Notes under the pieces: model-generated
The model's database searches: none
What the model was told of the DNA's origin: nothing
The model's input: the letters and a program-made list of their open reading frames with translations, nothing else
From: a virus
DNA: 26,221 nt
Direction: 5' to 3' (one strand)
Virus record (IMG/VR): IMGVR_UViG_3300009285_001973
Coordinates: 1-26,221 of that record
Position numbers and translations under genes: made by a program
In this document: positions 1,041 to 17,332 of the stretch, one piece after another
How the letters are laid out: the number at the start of each line of letters is the position of its first letter
How positions within the stretch are numbered: position 1 is the stretch's first letter

Positions 1041-2560
1041 TGTCCGACCCTAAACTTAGACAACTCTTTCTCTCCTGGCGTCTGGACTCCTATAAATTTG
1101 CGCGGGAGGCGTGCGGCTTAAATGGCCCAACCCCCGGCTTGGATGCTTTATCCAATCAGCAGATCGAAGGTTGCCGGCATATTTCCCTCCTAACCACGGC
1201 AAAATGGAAGCTGGCCCTGGGCCAACCGATGACGGAAACGGAAAAAATTTATTCCAAGAAGATCGGAATTTCCATTATGAGCGGGCAAGGGACGGGCAAA
1301 GATTTTTGGGTGGGTTTGCATATACTCTGGTTTTTAAGTTGTTTTGAGTTTCCCATTATCGGAGCGACCGCCCCCACGCAGCACCAACTGAAAGACGTTC
1401 TCTGGTCACAAATTTATAAAATAGCTAATCGAAGAAAGGAAGATGGCAGCTATTATTTCGTTTTGAGAGACAAATTTGAAATTCAGGCTGATAAGGTTTA
1501 CATGAAAGAATACGAGGGCAAACAGTGGTACGCAGTAGCCCGAACTACCAACGCCAAAGGCAGCGCAGATGAACAGGCGGAGACACTTGCCGGGTTACAT
1601 GAGCATAATTTAATGCTGCCTATTGACGAAGCTACCGGAGTACCCGATCCGGTTTTTAAACCATTCGATGGAGCCATGACCCAAGAATGTAATTTTGGCG
1701 TTCTCATTTTCAACCCTACACGCTCTACTGGTTACGCGATAAGAAGTCAATTCCAGGACCGCGAGCATTGGGTTTGCCTGCGGTGGAATGCCGAGGAAAG
1801 CGATATTGTTACGAAGGCGTCTATAGAAGAAAAAGCACGGCGTCATGGGAGAGATTCTAACTTTTTCCGTATCCGCGTTCTTGGCCTCCCCCCTTCGGTC
1901 GGTAGCGACGAATTAATCCCTTGGGATTGGGTTATGGACGCGGTAAATAGGGACGTTCAACCGATGGATGACGACCCGTTGATTTTTATTATCGACGTAG
2001 GCGCAGGGGGCGATGATACCGCTTTATGCCGCCGCAAAGGGCCGCAGGTCATGCCGTTTGAAGTTACTAATATCGCGGAACCTGAAATCCTCACCAATTG
2101 GCTTCTAAGGCGCATTTTGACAGAGGAACCGCGCTTTGCGTTCATTGATCCTATCGGCGTTGGATGGGGAATAGCAGGACATTTGACGGATAGAGTGAAA
2201 AATGGGGTAACGGAGATAATCGGAGTGAACGTAGCCGAGGCCGCAGCCGAAGATGCTAGATTTTCACGCCTACGAGACGAGCTTTGGTGGAAAACGAGAG
2301 AGGAATTTGAGGCAAGAACTATTTCCATTCCCGACGATCCGCTTTTAATCGACGAATTGACCGCTATCAAGGTCGATCAGGAACGATTAGATGGAAAAAT
2401 CAAGGTAGAAGGGAAAAGAGACCTCCGCAAGCGCATAGATTCCCCTAACCGGGCGGATACGATTATGATGAGCCAATTTTACGGGAAATTTTATATCAGA
2501 AAAATGGCGCAGAAGAAGAAAGCGAAGCATGAGGCGCAGCCGAGTTGGAGGGTGACGTGA
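1040..2560 (+). CDS. Terminase large subunit (DNA-packaging ATPase-nuclease)
   Basis: A 506-residue protein of normal length for a large terminase, the motor that pumps DNA into the procapsid and cuts the concatemer. The ATPase domain has a Walker A-type loop SGQGTGKD at residues 81-88, a hydrophobic strand plus acidic pair LMLPIDEA at 191-198 (Walker B and catalytic Glu), and a likely coupling motif FNPTRSTG around 224-231. The nuclease domain has the RNase H-like acidic residues in FIIDVGAGGDDTA (D319, D325/D326), FAFIDPIG (D369 region) and SPNRADTI (D473). It starts one base inside the previous stop, and its stop overlaps the GTG of the HNH gene by 4 bases. The family call is firm; the subgroup is not determined. 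Confidence 0.95.
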   Translation: MSDPKLRQLFLSWRLDSYKFAREACGLNGPTPGLDALSNQQIEGCRHISLLTTAKWKLALGQPMTETEKIYSKKIGISIMSGQGTGKDFWVGLHILWFLSCFEFPIIGATAPTQHQLKDVLWSQIYKIANRRKEDGSYYFVLRDKFEIQADKVYMKEYEGKQWYAVARTTNAKGSADEQAETLAGLHEHNLMLPIDEATGVPDPVFKPFDGAMTQECNFGVLIFNPTRSTGYAIRSQFQDREHWVCLRWNAEESDIVTKASIEEKARRHGRDSNFFRIRVLGLPPSVGSDELIPWDWVMDAVNRDVQPMDDDPLIFIIDVGAGGDDTALCRRKGPQVMPFEVTNIAEPEILTNWLLRRILTEEPRFAFIDPIGVGWGIAGHLTDRVKNGVTEIIGVNVAEAAAEDARFSRLRDELWWKTREEFEARTISIPDDPLLIDELTAIKVDQERLDGKIKVEGKRDLRKRIDSPNRADTIMMSQFYGKFYIRKMAQKKKAKHEAQPSWRVT

Positions 2561-3012
2561 GGCAACCACTAGCGGAAAGATTTTTTGACAAAATTCAAAT
2601 TGGCGGCGATGATGACTGCTGGCTGTGGATAGGTGCTAAATTTTTAGGTGGTTATGGTTCGATTTGGTATCAGGGACAAAATCGTCGGGCAACAAGAATT
2701 TTATATATTCTTCTCGGCAATGAAGTTCCTGCCAAATTCGACGTTTTACATTCATGCGACAATCCGCCATGTATGAATCCTCGTCATCACTTTCGAGGGA
2801 CGCGAGCCGATAATTGCCGCGATATGGGAAAAAAGGGAAGAGCTTGCAAGGGTAGCCAACAATGGAATGCGCGGTTAACAGAGAAGGATATTCCGTATAT
2901 ACGCGAATTGAGACGAAACGGCAAATTATATAAGGAAATAGCTGCTAAGTTTGATGTTCATCCAGTTACTATAGGCGATATTTTCAGAAGATCGACATGG
3001 AAACATCTATGA
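2557..3012 (+). CDS. HNH homing endonuclease (HNH_3 type) with C-terminal HTH
   Basis: About 151 residues. The N-terminus has the DDDCWLWIGAKFLGGYG pattern usual for HNH_3 homing nucleases. The nuclease core is VLHSCDNPPCMNPRHHFRGT (His65, Asn74, His77/78, with two Cys), and the C-terminus (about 110-146) looks like a helix-turn-helix (YKEIAAKFDVHPVTIGDIF). I prefer the GTG at 2557, which overlaps the terminase stop as GTGA and follows GGAGGG by 4 bases; an upstream in-frame TTG at 2545 is possible. The gene sits exactly between terminase and the NeuB-like gene, overlapping both by 4 bases. It is probably a free-standing selfish element and shares its architecture with the broken gene at 3881. 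Confidence 0.9.
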   Translation: MRQPLAERFFDKIQIGGDDDCWLWIGAKFLGGYGSIWYQGQNRRATRILYILLGNEVPAKFDVLHSCDNPPCMNPRHHFRGTRADNCRDMGKKGRACKGSQQWNARLTEKDIPYIRELRRNGKLYKEIAAKFDVHPVTIGDIFRRSTWKHL

Positions 3013-3884
3013 AAATAGTAAACTATGAAATAGGAATGGGCCAGCCTTGTTTTATCGTGGCAGAGGCTGGAGTTAATCACAATGGTTCCCTCGAACTCGC
3101 CAAAAAACTCATTGACGCCGCTCAAGCCGCAGGCGCAAACGCCGTCAAATTTCAGAAGCGTTCGATTGAGATTTGCTACACCAAAGAAGAACTCGACAAG
3201 CCCCGCGAATCACCCTGGGGAACTACCAACAGGCAACAGAAAGAAGGGTTGGAATTCGGCCTAAACGAATATCTGGAAATAGACGATTACTGCGAAGAGA
3301 AAGGAATTATCTGGTACGCGAGCCCCTGGGATATTGAATCGGCGGATTTTCTTGATAGCTTCGATATTCCGGTCTGGAAAGTGGCCAGCGCGTGCGTGAC
3401 GGATATTGAATTGCTTCGCTACATGGCAGAATCGAAAAAGCCAGTGATTATCTCCACGGGAATGAGCACTCTGAAAGAAGTGGAATCGGCTGTTTTTGTT
3501 TTTGAGACAGCAGGATATAAGCCTGAAGATATCGCTCTCCTTTCCTGCGTTTCCACCTATCCGACGCCGATAGAAGAATTGAATCTGTTGAAAATCGTTA
3601 CCCTGAAAGATTACTTCCTGGGCCACCCGATAGGATACTCCGGCCACGAAGTCGGTTTGTGGACTACTCTTGCTGCTGTCGCTATGGGAGCTTGTATCGT
3701 GGAGCGGCATCTGACCCTTGACCGGGCTTCGTATGGTTCAGACCAGGCAGCGAGCCTGGAACCGATAGCGTTTACTAAACTGGTCGTGGAAATCCGTGAC
3801 TTGGAACGCGCCAGAGGGGACGGCAAAATTGACATTATCAAGAGCGAGATGGCGATAAGAGAGAAATTAAGGAGATTTCGATGA
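3009..3884 (+). CDS. neuB: NeuB/SpsE-type nonulosonic (sialic) acid synthase
   Basis: A 291-residue TIM-barrel protein that should condense phosphoenolpyruvate with an amino-sugar such as N-acetylmannosamine to make a nine-carbon sugar acid. Visible signatures are AEAGVNHNG (residues 18-26, E19), NAVKFQK (K47), WKVASA (K124), STGMSTL (149-155), GYSGHEVG (H213), VERHLTLDR (H234) and GSDQAASLEP (243-252). The two histidines match the metal ligands known in NeuB. The usual C-terminal SAF (antifreeze-like) domain is absent; full NeuB proteins are about 340-350 residues. The ATG at 3009 overlaps the HNH stop as ATGA, and its own stop overlaps the next HNH start as ATGA. Substrate (sialic, legionaminic, pseudaminic or other) cannot be read from sequence. 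Confidence 0.93.
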   Translation: MKIVNYEIGMGQPCFIVAEAGVNHNGSLELAKKLIDAAQAAGANAVKFQKRSIEICYTKEELDKPRESPWGTTNRQQKEGLEFGLNEYLEIDDYCEEKGIIWYASPWDIESADFLDSFDIPVWKVASACVTDIELLRYMAESKKPVIISTGMSTLKEVESAVFVFETAGYKPEDIALLSCVSTYPTPIEELNLLKIVTLKDYFLGHPIGYSGHEVGLWTTLAAVAMGACIVERHLTLDRASYGSDQAASLEPIAFTKLVVEIRDLERARGDGKIDIIKSEMAIREKLRRFR

Positions 3885-4387
3885 AAAAAATGGCACCCAA
3901 TATTGATCGATTTCTCGCGTCAATAAATTATGGCGATGGCTGTTGGGCTTGGATTGGCACGCGATTTAGCAACGGTTATGGTCGATTTCGATTGCCGCCA
4001 CCATAAGGAAAACATGAGGGTGCTCACCGTTATATGTGGAAATTGCTTTATGGCGATTTAAGAAAAAACGATTTTGTTTGTCATAAGTGCGACAATCGCG
4101 CGTGTGTAAGGCCAGTTCATTTATTTGTCGGAACACAAAAAGGTAACGTTGCCGATATGTTTTCAAAGGGGCGAGCCGGCCCACAAAAAGACCCAACCTG
4201 GCAACGAGGAGAAAAAAATAGAAACCACCGTCTTAATTTTGCGCAGGTTAAGCAAATCCGTAAGCAATTTGAATCAATGACCGCGAAGGAAATCGCCCCT
4301 TTATATGATATTGCTCCTGGCACTGTTTACAATATTATTCATCGTCAAAGATGGAACTATAAAGAATGTCTCGCACAATCGCGATAA
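3881..4387 (+). pseudogene. HNH homing endonuclease gene with an in-frame TAA
   Basis: From the ATG at 3881 (ATGA overlap with the NeuB-like stop) the frame reads a typical HNH_3 N-terminus (GDGCWAWIGTRFSNGYGRFR), then hits TAA at 4004-4006, codon 42. The same frame continues without a shift into GAHRYMWKLLYGD, the HNH core VCHKCDNRACVRPVHLFVGT and a C-terminal HTH (AKEIAPLYDIAPGTVYNII). A single CAA-to-TAA change would explain it. TAA is an ordinary stop elsewhere here, so codon reassignment is unlikely. An ATG at 4034 could still yield a 117-residue fragment that keeps the nuclease core and HTH. The 3' end overlaps the cytidylyltransferase start by 22 bases. Confidence 0.85.
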
Positions 4388-5067
4388 TCCAACAGCGCTT
4401 AGGAAACACAAGGCTTAAAAATAAGGCTCTCCTTCCGCTCTGCGGCATTCCCATGACGCAGCACATCGTGGACCGCTGTAAGCGGGCGAAGCTTGTGAAT
4501 GAAGTCGTAGTTGCCTGTCCGTTCAAGGACGCGATTGTCCTTGGCGAAGCCTTGGATGCTACCATTGTCGCCCCCGATGTGCCGGAGAATGATCTGATTG
4601 CTCGATACTACACGGTAGCAAAGGGAATGGGGGCGGATGTAGCAATCCGAATCAGCGGCGATAACCCATGTATTGAGCCGGAGGAGATCGATGCGCTTTG
4701 TGGCTTTATTGGTGGTGGCCTGGGTGGCCTGGTCACCAATGCCGAATATATTGATCCTCAGATGCCACAGCTAGGTTTTGACGGCTTGGGCGGTGAGCGT
4801 TATGCATTGGGAATGTTGAAGTGGATGAATCAAACGATCAAAGAACCGTTTTACAGAGAGCATCCACACAAGTTTTGGTACGACATCAACCGCTACGCTT
4901 ATGTAGGCAAACCCTATCCCAATGGTTTCCGCCTCGACATCAACAACCAGGCCGATTATGAAAAGATCCGCGACATCTACGAGCACTGCTATCCGCAAAA
5001 CCATGAATTCGGGATAAAGGAAATTCTGGAGTACCTCAATGCAAAAAAAGAAGCGGCACAAGCATAA
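4366..5067 (+). CDS. SpsF-like cytidylyltransferase (sugar-acid CMP transferase family)
   Basis: A 233-residue nucleotidyltransferase-fold protein. The N-terminus IAIIQQRLGNTRLKNKALLPL (residues 5-25, split around L18) follows the family pattern IxQARMGSTRLPGKxLLPL, with R11, R16 and K20 in the CTP-binding loop. RISGDNPCIEPEEID (95-109) matches the metal-binding RITGDCPLIDPE motif (D99), and FRLDINNQADYEKI (188-201) matches the conserved C-terminal LRLTxDTPEDxxL segment. This family (SpsF, related to CMP-KDO and CMP-NeuNAc synthetases) activates sugar acids as CMP derivatives. Its placement right after the NeuB-like gene mirrors SpsE-SpsF pairing in spore-coat polysaccharide operons. The product sugar is unknown. 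Confidence 0.88.
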   Translation: MSRTIAIIQQRLGNTRLKNKALLPLCGIPMTQHIVDRCKRAKLVNEVVVACPFKDAIVLGEALDATIVAPDVPENDLIARYYTVAKGMGADVAIRISGDNPCIEPEEIDALCGFIGGGLGGLVTNAEYIDPQMPQLGFDGLGGERYALGMLKWMNQTIKEPFYREHPHKFWYDINRYAYVGKPYPNGFRLDINNQADYEKIRDIYEHCYPQNHEFGIKEILEYLNAKKEAAQA

Positions 5068-5206
5068 GTGGGTTTACGCCTACTACCACTGGCAGTACGG
5101 AAAAGGCGAAAACGTTTATGAGTGTGTTTGTGGAGCTAGGAAGCGAAAAGAGGTAAAACGTGAGCCGTGCGATTTGGAAAAACGGAATCTTCTTGCCAGA
5201 AAGTGA
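5039..5206 (+). CDS. Small basic Cys-containing protein, 55 residues
   Basis: A short ORF spanning the junction of two larger genes: it overlaps the cytidylyltransferase by 29 bases and the aminotransferase by 47. It begins MQKKKRHKHKWVYAYYHWQY and contains YECVCGARKRK, a half zinc-ribbon like that in many tiny phage proteins. The composition of the part not overlapping the aminotransferase (5068-5159) is protein-like and nothing else uses that DNA. No strong Shine-Dalgarno is visible before the ATG, so expression may depend on coupling to the upstream gene. Function unknown. Confidence 0.5.
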   Translation: MQKKKRHKHKWVYAYYHWQYGKGENVYECVCGARKRKEVKREPCDLEKRNLLARK

Positions 5207-6077
5207 GGCGACCCTAAGTTTATATGATTCAGCCCTACTATACGGTGATAGCGTTTTCGAAATGGCAAGAAGTTTTAACAAAAAGCTGTTTAAGCTCGAA
5301 GCCCACATTGACCGCCTCATGGATTCTATCAAATTCACTTCTATGCCGTGCGCCTATAACTTTCACCAACTAAAGATGGCCCATGAGGATTTGATATGCC
5401 GAAACAGAAAGGAGTTCGCAGAAGACGACGAATATCGTACATTCATAAATGTCAGCAGGGGGCCATTACCGATCTACAAGGATATTTTGGAGGTAAAACC
5501 GTGGGTAATGATAACGTGTTATCCTTTACGGTGGGTTCTGAGGGGTATGTCAAAATACTATCAGCAGGGAGTTACTACGGTTATCCCCTCGCAGAGGGCG
5601 ATACCGTCACGGTACATCGAAAACAAAGTAAAAAATCACTGCCGGTTAAGTTCAAGGCTGGCAGAATTGGAGGTAAGAAGAAATGATCCCGAAGCATGGC
5701 CCCTTTTGGTTGACGATAAAGGTTATATTACCGAAGGAACCGGAGCAAATTTCTTCATTTGTAAAAGAGATAGGCTTATTACTCCAGAACCCCAAGACTG
5801 TCTCCGAGGCATTAGCAGGAACTTTATCCTTTCCTTGGCCCGATCCAATGGCATTGACTATCGAGAGCGGGACATTGGATCTTTCGACGCTATCACCGCC
5901 GACGAAGCCTTTTTCACCGCTACACCGTGGTCTATTCTCCCGGTTACTAAAATCAATGGGACGAAAATTGGGAATGGGAAAGTCGGAAAGATGACGGAGT
6001 TTCTTTCAAGTAAGTGGGAGGAAGAAGTCGGATGCGAATGGAGAGAACAGGCGAAACTTTGGGATGAAAATGCTTGA
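5160..6077 (+). CDS. Class IV PLP-dependent aminotransferase (IlvE/DAAT fold)
   Basis: A 305-residue protein with fold-type IV signatures. The N-terminus (LYDSALLYGDSVFEMAR, 21-37) matches the DRGFxYGDGVFExxR entry motif. K156 in NKVKNH fits the Schiff-base lysine pattern KxxN. TEGTGANFFI (191-200, E192) is the conserved EGxxxNxFx block, CLRGISR (214-220) fits the TPxxxxGITR site, and FFTATPWSILPVTKING (251-267) the C-terminal PLP-phosphate region. Members act on branched-chain amino acids, D-amino acids or aminodeoxychorismate, so the substrate is open. It starts at GTG with AGAGG 6 bases upstream. It follows the NeuB-SpsF pair, which raises the possibility of a role in making an amino-sugar acid or its amino-acid substituent. 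Confidence 0.9.
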   Translation: MSRAIWKNGIFLPESEATLSLYDSALLYGDSVFEMARSFNKKLFKLEAHIDRLMDSIKFTSMPCAYNFHQLKMAHEDLICRNRKEFAEDDEYRTFINVSRGPLPIYKDILEVKPWVMITCYPLRWVLRGMSKYYQQGVTTVIPSQRAIPSRYIENKVKNHCRLSSRLAELEVRRNDPEAWPLLVDDKGYITEGTGANFFICKRDRLITPEPQDCLRGISRNFILSLARSNGIDYRERDIGSFDAITADEAFFTATPWSILPVTKINGTKIGNGKVGKMTEFLSSKWEEEVGCEWREQAKLWDENA

Positions 6078-6237
6078 TGCTCTATACATAGGAGTCCTTA
6101 CGATGATAGCACTGTTACCGATAGGGCTAAGTGTTTTTGATAAGTGGGACGAATGGGAAGAAACTACTGCTGGCAAAATTGTGCCTTCCATTATCGGACT
6201 TTTAATTCTCATGGCTTTTGCTGTGAAGTGTAAATAG
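6064..6237 (+). CDS. Small two-pass membrane protein, 57 residues
   Basis: The ORF overlaps the aminotransferase 3' end by 14 bases. It encodes two hydrophobic segments: about residues 6-25 (LYIGVLTMIALLPIGLSVF) and 39-55 (IVPSIIGLLILMAFAV), joined by a charged turn (DKWDEWEETTAGK). This is the pattern of a small inner-membrane hairpin protein. There are two candidate starts, ATG at 6064 and ATG at 6070. I recognise no family. Small membrane proteins in phage accessory regions can act in exclusion or lysis, but nothing here identifies either role. Confidence 0.6.
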   Translation: MKMLDALYIGVLTMIALLPIGLSVFDKWDEWEETTAGKIVPSIIGLLILMAFAVKCK

Positions 6238-6250
6238 GCGAGGAGATGGG

Positions 6251-6469
6251 ATGGAAAAGTTTAAACACATAAATTGTCCTAATTGTGGTAGTAAGAATAC
6301 AGTCGTTGGCGAAGGCGATGATCTTTCCACAACTGGACCAACTGGTATTTACGTATGGTGCAAGAAATGTAAACATCGCAACGCGGTCGGCTACATTGGC
6401 GGTACAGCTATGGCTGGTGATTTTAAAAACTACAATAAGCGAATTTATTTCAAAAACAAAAAATGCTGA
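6251..6469 (+). CDS. Small zinc-ribbon protein, 72 residues
   Basis: Two Cys pairs, NCPNCGS (C9, C12) and WCKKCKH (C37, C40), about 25 residues apart, form a classic zinc ribbon. A Lys/Asn/Tyr-rich C-terminal tail follows. GAGGAG lies 5 bases or so before the ATG. The last Cys codon and the stop (TGC TGA) lie inside the first of three copies of the radical SAM gene start. The upstream bases (GAGGAGATGGGATGGA) resemble those before the next small ORF. The role is unknown; zinc ribbons of this type bind nucleic acid or protein partners. Confidence 0.75.
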   Translation: MEKFKHINCPNCGSKNTVVGEGDDLSTTGPTGIYVWCKKCKHRNAVGYIGGTAMAGDFKNYNKRIYFKNKKC

Positions 6470-6486
6470 ACGGGCTTAGCCAAATA
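6463..6486 (+). repeat. First echo of the radical SAM gene start
   Basis: Reads ATG CTG AAC GGG CTT AGC CAA ATA, coding MLNGLSQI, the first eight residues of the radical SAM protein at 6908. It differs from the copy at 6689 at three bases. The frame opened here dies after about ten further codons, so this is a remnant, not a gene. It supplies the last codon and stop of the zinc-ribbon ORF at 6251. Confidence 0.85.
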
Positions 6487-6497
6487 GAGGAGATAGG

Positions 6498-6695
6498 ATG
6501 GAGAATAATGATAAGTTAGGTTATGATGAGGTTTGCATTTATTGCTGTAAATCCCACAGGAAAAAGTCCACGCAAATAAGATGCCAGAAGAAATACGACG
6601 TTAATTGGATTAAAGTTGAGAGCAAGGGTGAAATCTTTGTCGTAAATCGTACTTGGTTTGATCGCATGAAGCCGCTGCACATAGATCAATGCTGA
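6498..6695 (+). CDS. Small Cys-containing protein, 65 residues
   Basis: The ATG is preceded by GAGGAGATAGG. The protein has CIYCCKSH (C13, C16, C17) and a later RC (C29), which could be an incomplete metal site. It is followed by a beta-like stretch (WIKVESKGEIFVVNRTWF), and the C-terminus is HIDQC. Its final Cys codon and stop are again TGC TGA from an echo of the radical SAM gene start, at 6689. It is not a clear paralogue of the zinc-ribbon ORF at 6251 despite the shared start and end context. Function unknown. Confidence 0.65.
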   Translation: MENNDKLGYDEVCIYCCKSHRKKSTQIRCQKKYDVNWIKVESKGEIFVVNRTWFDRMKPLHIDQC

Positions 6696-6717
6696 CCGGA
6701 CTTAGCCAAATCAACAT
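6689..6717 (+). repeat. Second echo of the radical SAM gene start
   Basis: Reads ATG CTG ACC GGA CTT AGC CAA ATC AAC AT, coding MLTGLSQIN. It matches the true gene start at 6908 at protein level but differs at many third positions, including a Ser codon change AGC to TCA. The frame ends soon after (stop near 6760). It forms the 3' end of the small ORF at 6498. Confidence 0.85.
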
Positions 6718-6734
6718 GCAGGCAAGGCAATGGG

Positions 6735-6908
6735 ATGAACAAAGCAAAAGTTGAAGCCTTTATAAAAGAATACCGCGCTCTGTGCAAAAAACACGGCATC
6801 GTGATCGGCGGTTTTGATGATGGTCCATTTCTTGCGAAAATTAACCAATACAATAAACTTGAAGAACTCATTCGCCACATGATGAAAAATAAGGTTTGGG
6901 ATTCCTGA
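6735..6908 (+). CDS. Small hypothetical protein, 57 residues
   Basis: The ORF runs from the ATG at 6735 to TGA at 6906-6908, the last base of which is the A of the radical SAM ATG (TGATG), so the two are likely translationally coupled. The protein is mostly helical: a basic N-terminal helix (KVEAFIKEYRALCKKHG), a short beta/turn (IVIGGFDDGPFL) and a C-terminal helix (YNKLEELIRHMMKNK). Small phage proteins with an LCxKHGIxI pattern are common and uncharacterised. The upstream AAGG signal is weak. Confidence 0.65.
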   Translation: MNKAKVEAFIKEYRALCKKHGIVIGGFDDGPFLAKINQYNKLEELIRHMMKNKVWDS

Positions 6909-6940
6909 TGCTTAACGGCCTTTCACAGATAAACATCGAA
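6908..6940 (+). repeat. Functional copy of the repeated gene start
   Basis: The third member of the repeat set, here the real beginning of the radical SAM gene: ATG CTT AAC GGC CTT TCA CAG ATA AAC ATC GAA (MLNGLSQINIE). Compared with the echoes at 6463 and 6689, nearly all base differences are silent. Confidence 0.85.
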
Positions 6941-7711
6941 CTTACTTCCCGCTGTGACAAGCGCAATCTTTGTCAATTTTGCGGGCACCAGGACGATGAG
7001 ATAAACCCGAATAAGAAGGGAAGAATGCTTTTTATGTTGCTTGTTCGGATCGCAGATCAGTTACCTGATGGCATTGTTTTACAGATGCACAGGGATGGTG
7101 AACCGACAGCCTATGACTTCTTAGGTGAAGCTCTTTTTTATCTTCATCCTCGTTTTATCGTTTCCATCCTTACCCACGGAGAGAACCTAATTCAAAAGGC
7201 CGATGAGATTATTAACCACTGTACGTCCCTCACCGTTTCCGCCTTCAACGGCGACCCGGATATGGAGTGGCAGATTGAAAACATCAAGAATTTTCTTGAA
7301 CTCAAAGGCGACCGCCCGCCTATGGTAAACATCAAAATTGTCGGCTTCATGCCGCCAGAAAGAGAGAGAATTTATGCAAGTCTTGGAATTCCGATCATCA
7401 GAAGATTACTCCATGTTCCTGACGGAAATTATAGATACGTTCGACGCCATCCAACCGTACCAGAACACGGCATTTGCCTCGACTTTTTGCATCACCCGTC
7501 CATTGATTGGAAAGGGCGGCTCTTTATATGTAACCGTCTTGACCCGTCCGATGCTGGCCTGCTAGGGGACTTAAACGAGTCCACCCTAGACGAACTGTGG
7601 AACTCACCGAAGCGGATGGAAATGTTAAGAGCGCATATGGCAGGACGGCGCGATCTGGCTAATCCTCTTTGTGCTCGTTGTATTTATTTCGGCGTCCCTT
7701 CAGAGATGTAA
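6908..7711 (+). CDS. Radical SAM protein with SPASM/Twitch-like auxiliary cluster
   Basis: A 267-residue protein. The N-terminal cluster motif is C16-x5-C22-x2-C25, a variant of the usual Cx3Cx2C that should hold the SAM-binding 4Fe-4S cluster. A GEP-type motif follows (HRDGEPTAY, G64-E65-P66). The C-terminus has C190, C208 (WKGRLFICNR), the GDLNESTLDELWNS segment (220-233) and C255-x2-C258, the layout of a SPASM/Twitch domain carrying an extra Fe-S cluster. Such enzymes modify peptides, sugars or other small molecules; the substrate is not evident. I chose the ATG at 6908, the TTG at 6896 being a weaker choice. Its first codons are duplicated upstream at 6463 and 6689. The next gene begins directly after the stop. 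Confidence 0.88.
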   Translation: MLNGLSQINIELTSRCDKRNLCQFCGHQDDEINPNKKGRMLFMLLVRIADQLPDGIVLQMHRDGEPTAYDFLGEALFYLHPRFIVSILTHGENLIQKADEIINHCTSLTVSAFNGDPDMEWQIENIKNFLELKGDRPPMVNIKIVGFMPPERERIYASLGIPIIRRLLHVPDGNYRYVRRHPTVPEHGICLDFLHHPSIDWKGRLFICNRLDPSDAGLLGDLNESTLDELWNSPKRMEMLRAHMAGRRDLANPLCARCIYFGVPSEM

Positions 7712-8428
7712 ATGGCTTATAATCCAGTAAGACAAAGAGCATACTATTTAATTTATCAAGAACAAAAGCGAGAGTATGCTCGACAATGGAGAAAAAATAA
7801 CCGTGATAAAGTCAAAGCACAAAAACGTCGTCCCGGCGCTCGCGCAAGTGCTTCGCGTTATTACTATAGACATCAAGAAAAGTTGAACGAACGCGCAAAA
7901 ATATGGCAGGCGATACACTCAGAGCGCAGTAAGGCCAATAGTAAGGCATATTACGAACAACGCAAATTAAGCGATCCCAATTACAATAAGAAGCGGGCAC
8001 AGAAATACAGTAAGCAACTTGCCGAACAACAGAAAAAACGCAGGGCAAAACTAAGGTTGGCGCGACAGGAATCTCCCGAACTTGATAAACGCGAACGTGA
8101 GCGGCAGCGAGTTTCCACCCAATTATGGAGAATTAAAAACCCTGACAAAGTGAAACTTAAAGGAATTGTAGATTTTCATAGAAGGAAAGCGCGACTGATC
8201 GGGAATGGGGGATCATTTTCTGCTAAAAATATCGAAATTTTGGAAGTTAGGCAGAAAGGGAAATGTTACTGCTGCGGTAAACCTTACGGCAAATTTCATA
8301 TAGACCATATATGGCCGGTAGCAAAAGGTGGTAGCAATGGGCCGGGAAATATTTGTTTGGCTTGTCCGCCATGCAATTTGTCTAAACATGATAAAACCCC
8401 GATGGAGTTTGCAGGAAGGCTTTTTTAA
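7712..8428 (+). CDS. HNH endonuclease with long basic helical N-terminus
   Basis: A 238-residue protein. The first 160 residues are very rich in Arg, Lys, Gln and Tyr with repeated K/RxxxxxW/Y units (ARQWRKNN, RAKIWQAIHSERSKANSKAYYE), probably a long DNA-contacting helix. The HNH core is at 185-230: CYCC (C185/C187/C188), FHIDHIWPVAKGG (D198-H199), N213, CPPC (C218, C221) and H226. The core belongs to the common HNH family (McrA-like). It begins immediately after the radical SAM stop and ends overlapping the next ATG by one base. The likely role is homing or mobility, the third nuclease gene of the island. Confidence 0.88.
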   Translation: MAYNPVRQRAYYLIYQEQKREYARQWRKNNRDKVKAQKRRPGARASASRYYYRHQEKLNERAKIWQAIHSERSKANSKAYYEQRKLSDPNYNKKRAQKYSKQLAEQQKKRRAKLRLARQESPELDKRERERQRVSTQLWRIKNPDKVKLKGIVDFHRRKARLIGNGGSFSAKNIEILEVRQKGKCYCCGKPYGKFHIDHIWPVAKGGSNGPGNICLACPPCNLSKHDKTPMEFAGRLF

Positions 8429-8764: not shown

Positions 8765-10912
8765 TCCAAATCCAAAAACGGTAAAGAAACCTCAACTGAC
8801 CGGGAATTACTTGTCCAACTGGATGAGTGGATTCGCGCCGACATAGAGCATCCTACTTGGGTATCTTGGCGGGAAAACGCCCTAAAATGCTTTAGATATA
8901 AGGAAAATGACCAGTGGACTAAGGAAGAATTAAAAGAACTCGCCACACGCGGCCAGCCCCCTACCGTCAATAATCAAATCAGCGTCACCATCAATCGTTT
9001 AGTCGGTCAATTCGTCAAAATCAAGACCCGCATAGGCTATCGGGGCCGGAACCAGCCCCAGGACCAAAGCGTAGCCGAAGCCCTCACCGACACCTTTCTC
9101 TACATTCGCCAAGCTAACGCCCTTGAATTTGAAGAAGTCGAGATGGCTGATAACGGCTTTACCGGCGGCTTTGGTGTGCTTGAAACCTATGTCGAATTTG
9201 ACGACATAGGCCAGCCGGAAATTAAGGTCAGAAGCGAAGATCCATTTTCCATTTTTCCCGATGGATGGTCGCGCCGGTATGACTGGAACGAAGATGCTAC
9301 AAGGATCAGCCGTGCCAAGTGGATGGATGTTAAAGATGCTCAGGCACGCTGGCCGGGAAAGAAAAATCAAATAGGGGAATTGGCCGATGGCAACGTTCTT
9401 GGCCTCTTGAGCGATGTAATAGGATTCAAAAACGAAAACTATGTCGATCCTAAGAGCCATCGAGTACGGCCTTTCGAGGTCTGGTGGAAGGAAAAGATCA
9501 AGGAAACTATCTGTCTTTTCGATGACGGCAGCATCGTTGACAAGCAAGCAATGACGCTCAAACTCTCTGATGGCCAGAGTAGGCCGATAAGCAAAAAAGA
9601 GCTTGAGGAGCTAAAAAAGATAAGGAATTATAAGGAGATAGATCGTCTAAGCCACAAGATGCATTGCGCTGTTTTTATCAGCGGCGTTTTACTAGAGCAC
9701 AAAGAAGTAGACCGCAAGTATTTTCCTTTTGTTCCCTACTTTGCGTACCGAAAAAAGAGCGGGGAGCCGTATAGCCTGATTTTCCTAGCTATCCCGATGC
9801 AGGACGCTATCAATAAGCGGGAATCGAAGGCCCTGCACCTGCTCAACACCAATCAGGCCATCATGGAAGAGAACGCTGTCGAGGATGAAAACGAGCTTGC
9901 TATTCAAAAGGCCCGTCCTGACGGCATTATCAAGCTCAGAGTAGGACAAAAGGAAAAGTTTGAACTGCACAATAACATCGAACTCGCTGCGACGCAGTTC
10001 AACATGCATAACCAGGGGAAGATCGACTTCCGGCACATCACCGGGATCAATCCAGAAGCCCTTGGGGAGCCGTCTGAGGTCCGATCTGGTGTAGGCATTG
10101 CCCGCAAGGTGGCTATGACCGAGCTTGTGATAGCCCCCCTATACGATAATGTCCGGCGCACCCGCATCCTTCTTGCCCGTAATATCCTCGAACTGGTCCA
10201 GAAATACTACACAGAAGAAAAACTCTTTTATATCCTCGATGATTTGAAGAAGGTTAAGGAAGTTGCCCTTAACAGGCGGCTTCCTGGCGGGAAGATTGAA
10301 AATGATATAAAACAAGGTTTGTATGATGTCGTAGCCGAGGATATGCCCGACATCACGACCCTACAGCAGGAGCAGGCTCAATTACTCGCACAGGCTCTCC
10401 CGAATATCCTTCCGTTTGGGCCATTCTGGACGAAAAAGTTAATCCAGTTATCCGATATTCGCAACAAAGAAGAATACATCAAGGAAATTGAGGCTGAGAG
10501 CGGTCCACCGCCTCTTGAGCCAAAAATCAACTTGACTGTCCAATTCGACAAGCTCCCGCCGTCTGAACGGGCCTTTTACTATATGAAAATGGGTAGCCCG
10601 GAGATGGCCCAAGTGGTCATGCAGGAAAACATGCCACCTACGCAGATGCTAGATGCTCAAGCGGATCAGGCAAAGGCGGCGTCTGACCAGCAAAATGTAG
10701 TTTTAAAGGCTAAAACAGACGCGCAAAAGACGATGATGGACATGGCCGCTAAGGAAATGGACCTAAAGGCAAAAGGCGAAATGCACCGGATGAACCTGGA
10801 AAAGGGGCGTATGGACATGGAAGCGGCAAAAATAAAAACGGCTCTGGCGATCACGCAGGCACAGATGGGGAAAGGCAATGGGAGTCAAGGAAATCAAGAT
10901 CGAGCACGCTAA
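8750..10912 (+). CDS. Portal protein (P22-type)
   Basis: A 720-residue protein with the features of podovirus portals: an N-terminal helical start (WVSWRENALKCFRYKENDQW), PPTVNNQI, VNRLVGQ-like TINRLVGQFVK (given in part), DPFSIFPD, and a central FRHITGINPEALGE region typical of the stem and crown-proximal part. The last 90 residues are Met/Lys/Gln/Ala-rich and should form a long coiled coil or barrel (AKTDAQKTMMDMAAKEMDL). The protein forms the dodecameric gate for DNA at the capsid vertex. Translation must start at the TTG at 8750: an in-frame TGA lies at 8729 and the first in-frame ATG is more than 120 codons downstream, past conserved sequence. AGGTGG lies 4 bases before TTG. Confidence 0.93.
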   Translation: MAYSESKSKNGKETSTDRELLVQLDEWIRADIEHPTWVSWRENALKCFRYKENDQWTKEELKELATRGQPPTVNNQISVTINRLVGQFVKIKTRIGYRGRNQPQDQSVAEALTDTFLYIRQANALEFEEVEMADNGFTGGFGVLETYVEFDDIGQPEIKVRSEDPFSIFPDGWSRRYDWNEDATRISRAKWMDVKDAQARWPGKKNQIGELADGNVLGLLSDVIGFKNENYVDPKSHRVRPFEVWWKEKIKETICLFDDGSIVDKQAMTLKLSDGQSRPISKKELEELKKIRNYKEIDRLSHKMHCAVFISGVLLEHKEVDRKYFPFVPYFAYRKKSGEPYSLIFLAIPMQDAINKRESKALHLLNTNQAIMEENAVEDENELAIQKARPDGIIKLRVGQKEKFELHNNIELAATQFNMHNQGKIDFRHITGINPEALGEPSEVRSGVGIARKVAMTELVIAPLYDNVRRTRILLARNILELVQKYYTEEKLFYILDDLKKVKEVALNRRLPGGKIENDIKQGLYDVVAEDMPDITTLQQEQAQLLAQALPNILPFGPFWTKKLIQLSDIRNKEEYIKEIEAESGPPPLEPKINLTVQFDKLPPSERAFYYMKMGSPEMAQVVMQENMPPTQMLDAQADQAKAASDQQNVVLKAKTDAQKTMMDMAAKEMDLKAKGEMHRMNLEKGRMDMEAAKIKTALAITQAQMGKGNGSQGNQDRAR

Positions 10913-14635: not shown

Positions 14636-15142
14636 GTGGCACTTCACACAGAAGAAGCCAAAGCTAAGATGAGAGAAGCGTGGAGGCGGAGGGGGCTAAT
14701 CCCCTTCTCCGCCGAAACGCTACTTAGGCAATCGCTCGCCAGCAAGGGAAAACCCAAATCTGCGAAGCATTGCTTAAACATTAGTCTCGGCAAACTCGGT
14801 AAGCCGCGACCCGATATGCAAGGGGCCAACAATCCAAAATGGATAGATGGTCGCATGAGTGATCCTAATCATGCGATAGAGTCTCTTCGCCTTCGACGGA
14901 AGTTAGGCAAGGTTCACCCTGAAATATGGGAGAACATAAAAAGGCGATACGACTATACATGCCCCGCCTGTGGCAGGATAGAACCTGACATCGTACTGAC
15001 TAAAGACCATATCATTCCGATCACTTGCGGCGGGACTAACGATCCAAGCAATCTGCAACCTCTTTGCAAAGCCTGCAATTCCCGAAAACACACAATGATT
15101 AAGCGATACTCGCCCAAAAAGGAGGCCACTATTGCAGTCTAG
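14636..15142 (+). CDS. HNH homing endonuclease with NUMOD3-like repeats
   Basis: A 168-residue protein. The first 65 residues contain NUMOD3-like DNA-binding motifs (TEEAKAKMREAWRRRG; SLASKGKPKSAKH; GKLGKPRPDMQG). The HNH core follows: C109/C112 (CPACG), DH at 124-125 in LTKDHIIPITCGG, N139 (DPSNLQPLC), C144/C147 and H152. This combination is typical of phage free-standing homing nucleases. The start appears to be the GTG at 14636 with only a weak Shine-Dalgarno. Its 3' end overlaps the next gene's ribosome-binding site and first codons, so it is fitted exactly into the gap between two late genes. Confidence 0.9.
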   Translation: MALHTEEAKAKMREAWRRRGLIPFSAETLLRQSLASKGKPKSAKHCLNISLGKLGKPRPDMQGANNPKWIDGRMSDPNHAIESLRLRRKLGKVHPEIWENIKRRYDYTCPACGRIEPDIVLTKDHIIPITCGGTNDPSNLQPLCKACNSRKHTMIKRYSPKKEATIAV

Positions 15143-16886
15143 CAACAATGGCAACGGTAACGGAGGGGTGTGGGACAAAAACACGCCCCTCCGTTATGTC
15201 GCCCAAGTAATCCGCAAATTAGACGACGGGACTTATCCTACAGAAGCGACGAAATGCTTTTGCGGGATAGAGCCTGCGAACGATTCCGTTCTAACCGAAC
15301 GTGACCGCTATACGATCCCGCATCGCATGGTTATGTGCGAAAACTGCCTTTTGATACGGGCGAACCCTCGTATGACAAAAGAAGCCTATGAGCAGTTTTA
15401 CAATAACGAATATCGCAAGATTTACGACGGCTTCCCCTATCGGGAAAAATCGGAAAACGATGACTTCCTTTTTCAAATCGCGGCTGACCGGAGTATGCAA
15501 CTAAAAACCTTTTTGGCCGAGTTCGATATACTGCATCCTAAAGTGGTAGTGGATATAGGTAGTGATAAAGGCGGCACATTAACCCCGTTCAAAGAGGATG
15601 GCGCAACGGTTTATGGCGTAGAGTTATGCGAACGGGGAAGAAGTTTTGCCGAGCAAAAAGGCATCCAGACAGTCAAAACTGTTGATGAATTGATCGCAAA
15701 AGGCGTAAAAGCCGACCTCGTTATCTTGCAAGATATAGTTGAACACCTGCTCGACTTAAATGAGCTAGGCAAGCTCAAAGACATACTTTCTCCGACAGGG
15801 CGCGTATTCATTTACACGCCTGGGCTACTGGCCTGCGACCCCGGCAAGATGTTTCAAAATGCCCATACCTACCAATTTCTAGGTGCGACGTTGCAATACG
15901 TGATGCAGAGGCTTGGCTATATAGACGAAATCCTCGACGACAGGGTTGTTTCTATATGGCGATATATCGGGCCGCATCGGTTCCCAGCGGAGCCTGAATT
16001 AGTATGGCGCACCCATATTTTTGAACATCTGTTGCAAAAAGCCCCTCGAACATTGCCGCCAGTAAGAACGCGCTGCAAGTTTTCCGAGAAAAGCATGTTG
16101 AGCAACCTGGAAGCCAATTTGAGCCGTAAACTGCCGACCATAACGGAGCTTGTCGGCAAGTATTCTGGTCCCTGCGTCATTGTCGGCGGTGGGCCATCGG
16201 TTGATAGCCAGATAGACAAGATCAAAGAATTAATTACAAGGGGCTATCCGCTGTTTGTTATTGAACGCATGTATCCCTGGTGCGCCAAACATGGCCTTAA
16301 ACCGACATTCGTTGTTCAGCTTGATGCCAGCGATGACGTTGAAGCCGGGTTCGCGCATCTTGACTCCGATACTATTCACCTCGTAGCCGCGACAACGTAT
16401 CCTCCTGTGTTTGACGCACTGAAGGGTTACAAAACATACATTTGGAGTGGTATTGGCGGAGCACATCCAGACGGGCAAGAAAGCTGGATACGCTACGGCT
16501 ATAAGAGAGTGACGGTTGTGAATACGGGCGGCTCTGTCGTCCTAGCGGCAATGTCTATAGCGTCGATGCTAGGTTTCCGCAACCTGCATCTTTTTGGCTA
16601 TGACTTTATGGTGCCAAGCCAAGAAAAAACGTATGCCGCTGACATAGCGGGGATGAGCGTAGATCGGACTTATATGGAAGTAGAAGTAGGCGAGGAGCAT
16701 GAGAAAGTCCTTACATGCACGTCTTTTCTTTCCTTCGCGCAGCAGTTTTTCAATATGCTCGAAACGCAACGCAAATGTGGATTGACTGACTCTGTAGATA
16801 TCTATGGAGAGTCGATTCTCAATAAAATGTGGGACAGACCAAATTCGGAGGCAATATGGCAGGATCAATCAGCACCCCTAATATAG
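15132..16886 (+). CDS. SAM methyltransferase fused to a DUF115 (Maf-like) domain
   Basis: A 584-residue two-domain enzyme. Residues 42-72 hold two Cys pairs (CFC, CENC), a zinc-ribbon seen before some sugar methyltransferases. Residues 135-260 are a class I methyltransferase: motif I VVVDIGSDKGGTL (138-150), acidic strand GVELCE (162-167), and DLVILQDIVEHLLDL (195-209). Residues 345-560 carry a DUF115 (PF01973) domain: CVIVGGGPSVDSQI (348-361), FVVQLDASDDV and GGSVVLAAMSIASMLGF with LHLFGYDF (485-492). DUF115 occurs in Maf proteins that glycosylate flagellin with nonulosonic acids and in the MptE pterin enzyme. It starts at TTG 15132 after GGAGG. Its 3' end overlaps the LAGLIDADG gene by 31 bases. 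Confidence 0.85.
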   Translation: MQSSNNGNGNGGVWDKNTPLRYVAQVIRKLDDGTYPTEATKCFCGIEPANDSVLTERDRYTIPHRMVMCENCLLIRANPRMTKEAYEQFYNNEYRKIYDGFPYREKSENDDFLFQIAADRSMQLKTFLAEFDILHPKVVVDIGSDKGGTLTPFKEDGATVYGVELCERGRSFAEQKGIQTVKTVDELIAKGVKADLVILQDIVEHLLDLNELGKLKDILSPTGRVFIYTPGLLACDPGKMFQNAHTYQFLGATLQYVMQRLGYIDEILDDRVVSIWRYIGPHRFPAEPELVWRTHIFEHLLQKAPRTLPPVRTRCKFSEKSMLSNLEANLSRKLPTITELVGKYSGPCVIVGGGPSVDSQIDKIKELITRGYPLFVIERMYPWCAKHGLKPTFVVQLDASDDVEAGFAHLDSDTIHLVAATTYPPVFDALKGYKTYIWSGIGGAHPDGQESWIRYGYKRVTVVNTGGSVVLAAMSIASMLGFRNLHLFGYDFMVPSQEKTYAADIAGMSVDRTYMEVEVGEEHEKVLTCTSFLSFAQQFFNMLETQRKCGLTDSVDIYGESILNKMWDRPNSEAIWQDQSAPLI

Positions 16887-17332
16887 CTTGGGCGGCTGGT
16901 TTTTTGGAAGGTGAAGGCAGTTTTTATTCTCCTGGTCCAAATACTTGTCCTACTGTGAGAGCGAGTCAGGTGCAAAAACAGCCCTTAGAGAAACTGCAAA
17001 AGTTGTTTGGGGGCATAATTCGTCTAGTCAATAGACACATTCCTACTAGCAAGGCCATATATGATTGGCAATGTCATGGACCTCGCGCAGCTGGAATAAT
17101 GATGACGATTTTCCAATTCATGTCGCCAAAAAGAAAGGAGCAAATCGGAAAAACTTTTTCCCGTTGGCAAAATACTCAAGGTCTCCAATCTAAGTATAAT
17201 AAGTTGTGTTTTAGGGGCCACGCAAATAGATGGGGGAAATTGGCCTATAAAGTAAAATCTACTGGTGAGCGCCGTATCGGGAGGCGTTGCCTAGAATGTC
17301 ATAACCTCCGAAGAAAGGGATTATTGGTGTAA
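16856..17332 (+). CDS. LAGLIDADG homing endonuclease using a virion gene's start
   Basis: A 158-residue protein with a single LAGLIDADG motif (WAAGFLEGEGSFY, 12-24), so it would act as a dimer. A C-terminal putative zinc module follows: C118FRGH (H122) and C145LEC (C148). The Shine-Dalgarno GGAGG and ATG appear to belong originally to a small virion gene: the first eleven codons, MAGSISTPNIA, continue naturally into the headless frame downstream (17331-17624). No intron core could fit, since nearly all of the inserted 451 bases is coding. The gene overlaps the DUF115 gene's end in another frame. Confidence 0.88.
   Translation: MAGSISTPNIAWAAGFLEGEGSFYSPGPNTCPTVRASQVQKQPLEKLQKLFGGIIRLVNRHIPTSKAIYDWQCHGPRAAGIMMTIFQFMSPKRKEQIGKTFSRWQNTQGLQSKYNKLCFRGHANRWGKLAYKVKSTGERRIGRRCLECHNLRRKGLLV
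16879..16887. repeat. Left junction repeat of the LAGLIDADG insertion
   Basis: TAATATAGC at codons 8-11 of the LAGLIDADG ORF. It matches TAATATCGC at 17330-17338 in 8 of 9 bases. The two flank the 451-base segment whose removal would restore one open frame. It may be duplicated target sequence or recombination microhomology. Confidence 0.6.

Follow-up and report, generated by a model that had tools for sequence, protein, structure and literature searches.

How do several small ORFs come to stand in a row between two phage genes that are direct neighbours in other phages? The question is raised by the window analysed here, which is the whole of the IMG/VR virus record IMGVR_UViG_3300009285_001973 (26,221 bases, from an uncultured phage). 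Its genes are arranged in the order terminase, NeuB-like, cytidylyltransferase-like, class IV aminotransferase (AMT), radical SAM/SPASM (rSAM), HNH endonuclease and portal; the terminase has no Pfam match and its name rests on reading and synteny. Between AMT and rSAM lie four small ORFs, which we call A to D. They are separated by short copies of the 3'-end of AMT, called tails, and by echoes of the rSAM start, called heads, so that the array reads AMT, A, tail 1, B, head 1, tail 2, C, head 2, tail 3, D and rSAM (Table 1). Heads 1, 2 and 3 are spaced 226 and 219 nt. The tail-ORF-head units are alleles of a single junction set in series. In our opinion they were stacked by repeated one-sided, homing-like recombination with relatives, a reading to which we give a probability of about 70%.

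Table 1. Features of the AMT-rSAM junction and of its flanking genes (positions in the window)
Feature	Positions	Strand	Similarity or basis
Class IV aminotransferase (AMT), upstream neighbour of the junction	5160..6077	+	Pfam Aminotran_4, E 2e-40; 73% identity to L002
Tail 0, true AMT 3' end, CAGGCGAAACTTTGGGATGAA	6048..6068	+	sequence
ORF A, 57 aa, membrane-like by reading	6064..6237	+	start is TGGG-ATG of AMT tail
Tail 1, foreign AMT 3' end copy ahead of ORF B	6235..6255	+	19/21 to L068, 18 nt exact
ORF B, 72 aa, zinc-ribbon-like	6251..6469	+	
Head 1, rSAM start echo (MLNGLSQI)	6463..6486	+	
Tail 2, probable AMT-tail copy ahead of ORF C	6487..6505	+	in register, resembles tail 1; alone not significant
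ORF C, 65 aa, Cys-rich, matches no known family	6498..6695	+	
Head 2, rSAM start echo (MLTGLSQIN)	6689..6717	+	
Tail 3, foreign AMT 3' end copy ahead of ORF D	6719..6739	+	18/21 to L068, 17/21 to L012
ORF D, 57 aa, matches no known family	6735..6908	+	
rSAM (radical SAM/SPASM) gene, real start is head 3	6908..7711	+	SPASM, E 7.5e-8; conserved in relatives
HNH endonuclease gene directly 3' of rSAM	7712..8428	+	Pfam HNH_5 and HNH; 36% identity to L063 HNH 3' of rSAM

Regarding the rest of the window, the NeuB-like, cytidylyltransferase-like, AMT, rSAM and methyltransferase/MptE-like genes occupy positions 3009-6077, 6908-7711 and 15132-16886, and the product of the last of them (15132-16886) is similar to the flagellin modification protein PseD. 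These genes might possibly represent a nonulosonic-acid-like sugar pathway among the phage's head genes. NeuB, AMT and rSAM co-occur also in Omnitrophota, Lentisphaerae and other bacteria. Free-standing endonuclease-like genes are found at gene junctions at 2545-3012, 7712-8428, 14636-15142 and 16829-17332, the last being of LAGLIDADG type by reading and having no Pfam family match. An HNH_3-type gene at 3881-4387, between NeuB and the cytidylyltransferase, is split by a frame change into 3881-4006 and 4034-4387. Finally, a 55-aa Cys-containing ORF (5039-5206) spans the boundary of the cytidylyltransferase gene and AMT, overlapping the former at its end and the latter at its start; the nine other phages compared have a tight junction there.

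Copies of both neighbouring genes around the small ORFs

A relaxed pattern of the rSAM start occurs at exactly three places of the window (6463, 6689 and 6908, all on the + strand) with 0 mismatches, the chance expectation being 0.20 with 3 mismatches allowed, and a repeat search recovers the same family. A reading of this DNA made from the letters only (hereafter, the sequence-only reading) had described three copies of the rSAM start with mostly silent differences, including AGC versus TCA for Ser, and both observations are confirmed. Head 1 differs from the real start in 6 bases and no amino acid, and head 2 in 8 bases and 1 amino acid; random substitutions would be equally silent with P ~1.5e-5 and ~6e-5 respectively. 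The two heads differ from each other in 3 bases, fewer than either of them from the real start. Against the rSAM starts of relatives the heads reach 18/24 and 19/24, whereas the maximum among ~23,500 control 24-mers was 16. The silent divergence together with this match indicates that the heads are fragments of rSAM alleles whose evolution was under selection at the protein level, as the same reading had proposed.

Other candidates for heads were discarded. A stretch after the real AMT end (6070, ATGCTTGATGCTC) has the look of a decayed head, but 6% of the control 24-mers match equally well and we do not claim it; no head separates ORF A from tail 1. Most of the other matches to the initial head pattern, in L007-L011, L013 and L014, were unrelated coincidences, for example MLNGFCQIN.

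The heads were only half of the pattern, and the other half had escaped the sequence-only reading: ORFs B and D are clearly preceded by copies of the AMT 3'-end, and ORF C probably is. These copies are TAGGCGAGGAGATGGGATGGA ahead of ORF B (6235) and CAGGCAAGGCAATGGGATGAA ahead of ORF D (6719). No other place in the window, AMT's own end excepted, matches AMT tails as well as these two do, and 2,000 dinucleotide shuffles of the region never yielded either score at the corresponding rank. When the tails were compared with the real AMT tails of 18 loci, using 23,552 controls, the 19/21 agreement of tail 1 with the AMT end of L068, with 18 bases in a row, was equalled by 0 of the controls, and the 18/21 agreement of tail 3 with the same locus by one. 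Tail 2 is weaker, 0.9% of the controls being as good, and it stands in register and is very like tail 1. At the end of ORF D (KVWDS) there might seem to be a tail 4; its likeness to AMT tails was equalled by 70% of the controls and it is not claimed.

Thus, the units also bear the tail of the upstream gene, which means that the joint is the overlap of the AMT end with the rSAM start and not the gene start alone. The former idea that a gene start serves as the joint has to be widened accordingly to include the AMT tail, although its core reappears at another junction of one relative (L063, see below).

That all these repeats are due to chance similarity or to an assembly error is hardly credible. 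They are short (21-29 nt), as such an explanation would have it, but the pattern, shuffle and control statistics of heads and tails speak against it, and so does the presence of the array in a second contig, L001, from a genome that differs by ~10% in its portal gene. Over 3,271 bases no difference separates L001 from the window; from shortly inside the portal gene the two diverge by ~10%, with 76 differences from 8796 on (8796-9529), a boundary that has the appearance of a recent recombination event. As two distinct phage genomes share the array, an assembly artefact can be excluded.

The junction in relatives and the signals it carries

The rSAM gene is encoded at 44 viral loci, and in ~15 relatives, including L002, L016-L019, L062-L067 and L070-L071, its start adjoins or overlaps the AMT end. 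The ancestral site is AMT directly followed, or overlapped, by rSAM. This overlap is not a feature shared with cellular homologues, an option that we ruled out: the bacterial rSAM gene has a different start and does not overlap AMT. The phage database searched held no rSAM relative, and the AMT matches there were ordinary aminotransferases. As a separate observation, tandem copies of GTTCCAATCTGAAACAT are located just upstream of the portal region in L016 (3990-4062), and fewer of them in L017-L019.

In L061 a single unrelated ORF of 70 aa lies exactly between AMT and rSAM, whereas its close relatives L063-L067 are empty at this place; L068 has a different single ORF of 58 aa. Both ORFs start at the TGGG-ATG of the AMT tail and stop within the rSAM head, and no extra heads accompany them. 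In L092 the two genes are separated by an insert of 1.7 kb with three ORFs, one of them pentapeptide-like by reading, and we found no convincing echo in it. The content upstream of rSAM varies among relatives as the sequence-only reading had anticipated, the exact site being either empty or taken by a different single ORF. Its other expectation, relatives missing one or two of ORFs B, C and D between the echoes, found no example.

Exchange at this joint can be followed in L018 and L019. Apart from a few short patches, their identity is ~100% over the stretch from terminase through AMT and again in the portal gene, but that of their rSAM genes is only ~50%. The whole rSAM gene has been swapped edge to edge (L018:4425-5280 and L019:6573-7404). 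The right breakpoint is at the conserved WGIP motif at the gene end; the left one is ~25-40 nt ahead of the rSAM start, and therefore the donor's last ~ten AMT codons were transferred too. Comparison with relatives shows a foreign origin for heads 1 and 2 as well as for tails 1 and 3, and it shows that swaps do take place at the joint. The empty and alternative sites and the L018/L019 swap agree well with the earlier proposal that small ORFs were repeatedly added here through exchange with relatives.

Nevertheless, the name of gene-gain hot spot given to this place overstates the case, since the AMT-rSAM junction is occupied no more often than its neighbours: 5/21 phages, compared with 5/10 for terminase-NeuB, 5/10 for NeuB-cytidylyltransferase and 9/9 for rSAM-portal. 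We looked for head or tail echoes at the window's other occupied junctions (the HNH genes at 2545, 3881 and 7712) and found none. Among the ~40 occupied junctions screened, clear echoes were present only at AMT-rSAM here and in L063, which suggests that the scar is rare or short-lived.

The small ORFs themselves are A+T-rich (38-40% G+C, versus 48% for the genome). For ORFs B and C the viral contig collection contains no relative outside L001 and for ORF D only short and weak ones, and the phage database gave no convincing matches to the small ORFs. A remnant of 15 aa in L012 looks, by direct reading, like the start of ORF A. We considered whether B and C could be paralogues and dropped the idea, no similarity being apparent by reading. 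ORF B (6251-6469) has a weak likeness to Lar-type restriction alleviation proteins, below the curated cut-offs, and a role in counter-defence is conceivable from its sequence.

What these ORFs have in common is the way in which they begin and end. ORFs A, B and D and the single ORFs of L061 and L068 start at TGGG-ATG, which corresponds to the Trp-Asp codons of the AMT tail (ORF C has TAGG-ATG). This context is present in 0/21 other gene starts of the window (hypergeometric count 6/80,730, ~7e-5). Except for ORF A, the ORFs stop out of frame within the rSAM start. The TGC TGA contained in the ATGCTGA of heads 1 and 2 forms the end of ORF B (6469) and ORF C (6695); to this extent it is correct that each echo supplies the last Cys codon and stop of the preceding ORF, as had been stated, but the third copy, the real rSAM start, completes ORF D with only the last base of its TGA and gives no Cys codon. 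Judged by its motifs, the AMT tail (AGGAG followed by TGGGATG) can give a ribosome site and an ATG to whatever comes next, and the rSAM head (ATGCTGA or ATGCTTAA) offers out-of-frame stops to whatever precedes it. As the tail supplies start signals and the head supplies stops, a small ORF in between needs no signals of its own; the shared starts and the stops within the rSAM start indicate that the AMT/rSAM overlap works as an expression slot.

One could then suppose that the heads and tails are kept for their function, as a regulatory or translational element ahead of each small ORF, for example a coupling leader. Every tail does have a ribosome-binding-like sequence and a start ATG, and heads 1 and 2 hold the stops of B and C. 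We regard this explanation as very unlikely, because the differences among the heads lie at synonymous codon positions, as is usual for protein-coding alleles, the single ORFs of L061 and L068 manage without extra heads, and the head pattern is found at no other place in the window. Furthermore, the joints fold no better than shuffles, and no promoter- or terminator-like sites above shuffles were detected at 6000-7000 (sigma-70-type promoters only).

A second echo and a possible history of the array

The second clear echo is at the NeuB-AMT junction of L063. Positions 4565-4598 there repeat 34 nt of the L067 AMT start (L067/L061-type) without a mismatch, and are followed by an HNH gene (4600-5106) and by L063's own AMT. 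This HNH gene is of the HNH_3 type and related to the HNH gene at window position 2545. L064 and L065 have the same HNH gene end ahead of AMT; in L064 the gene is a truncated remnant with an eroded echo before it. Thus, L063 and L064 bear the HNH gene or its remnant at NeuB-AMT, and L066 and L067 are without it. Over nt 1-90 of AMT the carriers are 91-93% alike and the empty-site phages 89-96%, compared with 65-74% between the two groups; past nt 90 the similarity between groups rises to 86-98%. Upstream of the insert lies a displaced AMT start and downstream of it a donor AMT tract of ~90 nt, which implies that the left joint of L063 was illegitimate and the right one homologous. This second echo explains the first, that of the window.

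An alternative history is that the AMT-rSAM region, with differing ORFs, was joined in tandem as long whole-gene segments, and that the gene bodies were later deleted until only short heads and tails remained. Head-tail joints are expected from it as well, and the common reading frame of head 2 and tail 3 (MLTGLSQIN-MQARQWDE, by reading) would suit it; it is also general knowledge that the size limits of phage genomes favour the loss of duplicate genes. We consider it unlikely all the same. Two steps are required per unit, with deletions ending at nearly the same place every time; no relative of the junction survey has a duplicate AMT or rSAM; and in L063 a short echo accompanies a single inserted gene, with only ~90 nt replaced.

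We therefore prefer repeated one-sided recombination, which could have proceeded as follows. Each tail-ORF-head unit would derive from a different related phage. The incoming left end would have been joined without homology ~24-29 nt inside the resident rSAM, so that the resident start was left as an echo, and the right end would have been resolved by homology within rSAM, where the incoming allele displaced the resident one. Each such event would rebuild the same target and the array would therefore grow at its downstream end, which would make A the oldest ORF and D the newest. Such a pattern is what one-sided, illegitimate double-strand-break repair would be expected to leave behind. Among the relatives examined we found neither a donor phage with a tail-B-head, tail-C-head or tail-D-head unit nor a one-step intermediate. 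The history of additions is well supported; the enzymology is what we infer from it. HNH genes are common in these phages and are plausible candidates as makers of the break, judging from the one directly 3' of rSAM here and its 36%-identical counterpart at the same place in L063; between AMT and rSAM the window phage has no HNH gene. Alternatively, a phage recombinase may have acted on short homology (compare PMC2327257).

More tentatively, and we would sooner bet against it than for it, the array could reflect a gene-gain ratchet. Breaks, perhaps made by candidate HNH enzymes encoded beside the gene, would recur at a conserved gene start because one-sided repair restores the target, and unrelated small genes would accumulate one behind the other as they arrive, every arrival leaving behind an echo of the allele that it displaced. 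If this is true, such echoes would be a general and datable signature of how phages acquire orphan genes.

The gain of the many small orphan genes of phages is mostly inferred from presence and absence, whereas here the joints themselves survive; they show the flanks that accompanied each gene and suggest an order of arrival. They also present a gene overlap as a ready-made expression slot, with a ribosome site and ATG on the left and out-of-frame stops on the right. Should such echoes of displaced starts turn out to be common, a single genome would suffice to reveal the mechanism and tempo of gene gain, and one could test what part homing endonucleases play in carrying other genes.

Comparison with known systems

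The closest parallels are in phage T4, where 'one-sided' events 'revealed illegitimate DSB repair', co-conversion occurs beside homing endonucleases, and the enzymes are able to cut far from their own gene (PMC2988022). In free-standing homing of the T4 type the insert stands between conserved genes, the flank on the homologous side is replaced by the donor allele and, where only one side has homology, the other joint is illegitimate; L063 fits this anatomy. Empty and occupied sites coexist in close relatives both at NeuB-AMT (L063 and L064 versus L066 and L067) and at AMT-rSAM (L061 versus L063-L067), and a donor flank allele has replaced the resident one in the AMT of L063-L065, which agrees with that of empty-site phages at 65-74% over nt 1-90 and at 87-98% beyond. 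Only in L063 does the insert encode an endonuclease (HNH_3), whereas ORFs A-D match no nuclease family. The window also differs in having a stack of three inserts (B, C and D), all of them small ORFs other than nuclease genes, and in keeping the scars of resident starts.

Phage mosaicism involves homeologous recombination (PMC2327257), with homing endonuclease genes at exchange boundaries (PMC10448857). As in mosaic genomes and in those with morons, small ORFs are present or absent between conserved genes of relatives, and exchange follows gene edges (L018/L019). The junction survey indeed shows extra genes between genes that are adjacent in relatives. Morons are described as having their own promoter and terminator; here, in contrast, the tail and head of the neighbours give start and stop, and successive events have left readable scars.

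Other systems resemble the array in its short repeats. The mobile regulatory cassettes of T4-type phages (PeSLs; Arbiol 2010, cited in PMC4503421) consist of promoter and stem-loop motifs. They share with our array short repeats between small ORFs that are potential recombination joints, but the joints here are the ends of coding genes and have no promoter or stem-loop above chance. The start-associated sequences (SAS) of cluster K mycobacteriophages, one consensus located upstream of many starts (PMC3203893), are likewise short repeats tied to translation starts. Here, however, the repeats are diverged alleles of the coding start of one gene, they lie at the 3'-ends of ORFs, and the head pattern occurs only at its three places in the window and not before many starts.

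Integron-like, site-specific capture of cassettes, with the head-tail joint as the recombination site, would account for the regular one-ORF units and for similar joints at even distances (226 and 219 nt). Nevertheless, an attC-like imperfect palindrome was searched for at the joints and none was found (no inverted repeats, no significant fold). The joints are moreover the coding ends of neighbour genes, and the tails and heads are diverged alleles, which makes such capture highly improbable.

In literature searches the parts of the mechanism were found and the stacked-scar signature was not, which is weak evidence given that subscription journals were mostly outside their scope. To our knowledge, stacked tail-ORF-head units with scars of displaced alleles are new. 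By analogy with the systems compared, the array of the window works like homing with one-sided illegitimate repair and is, in kind, a case of phage gene accretion.
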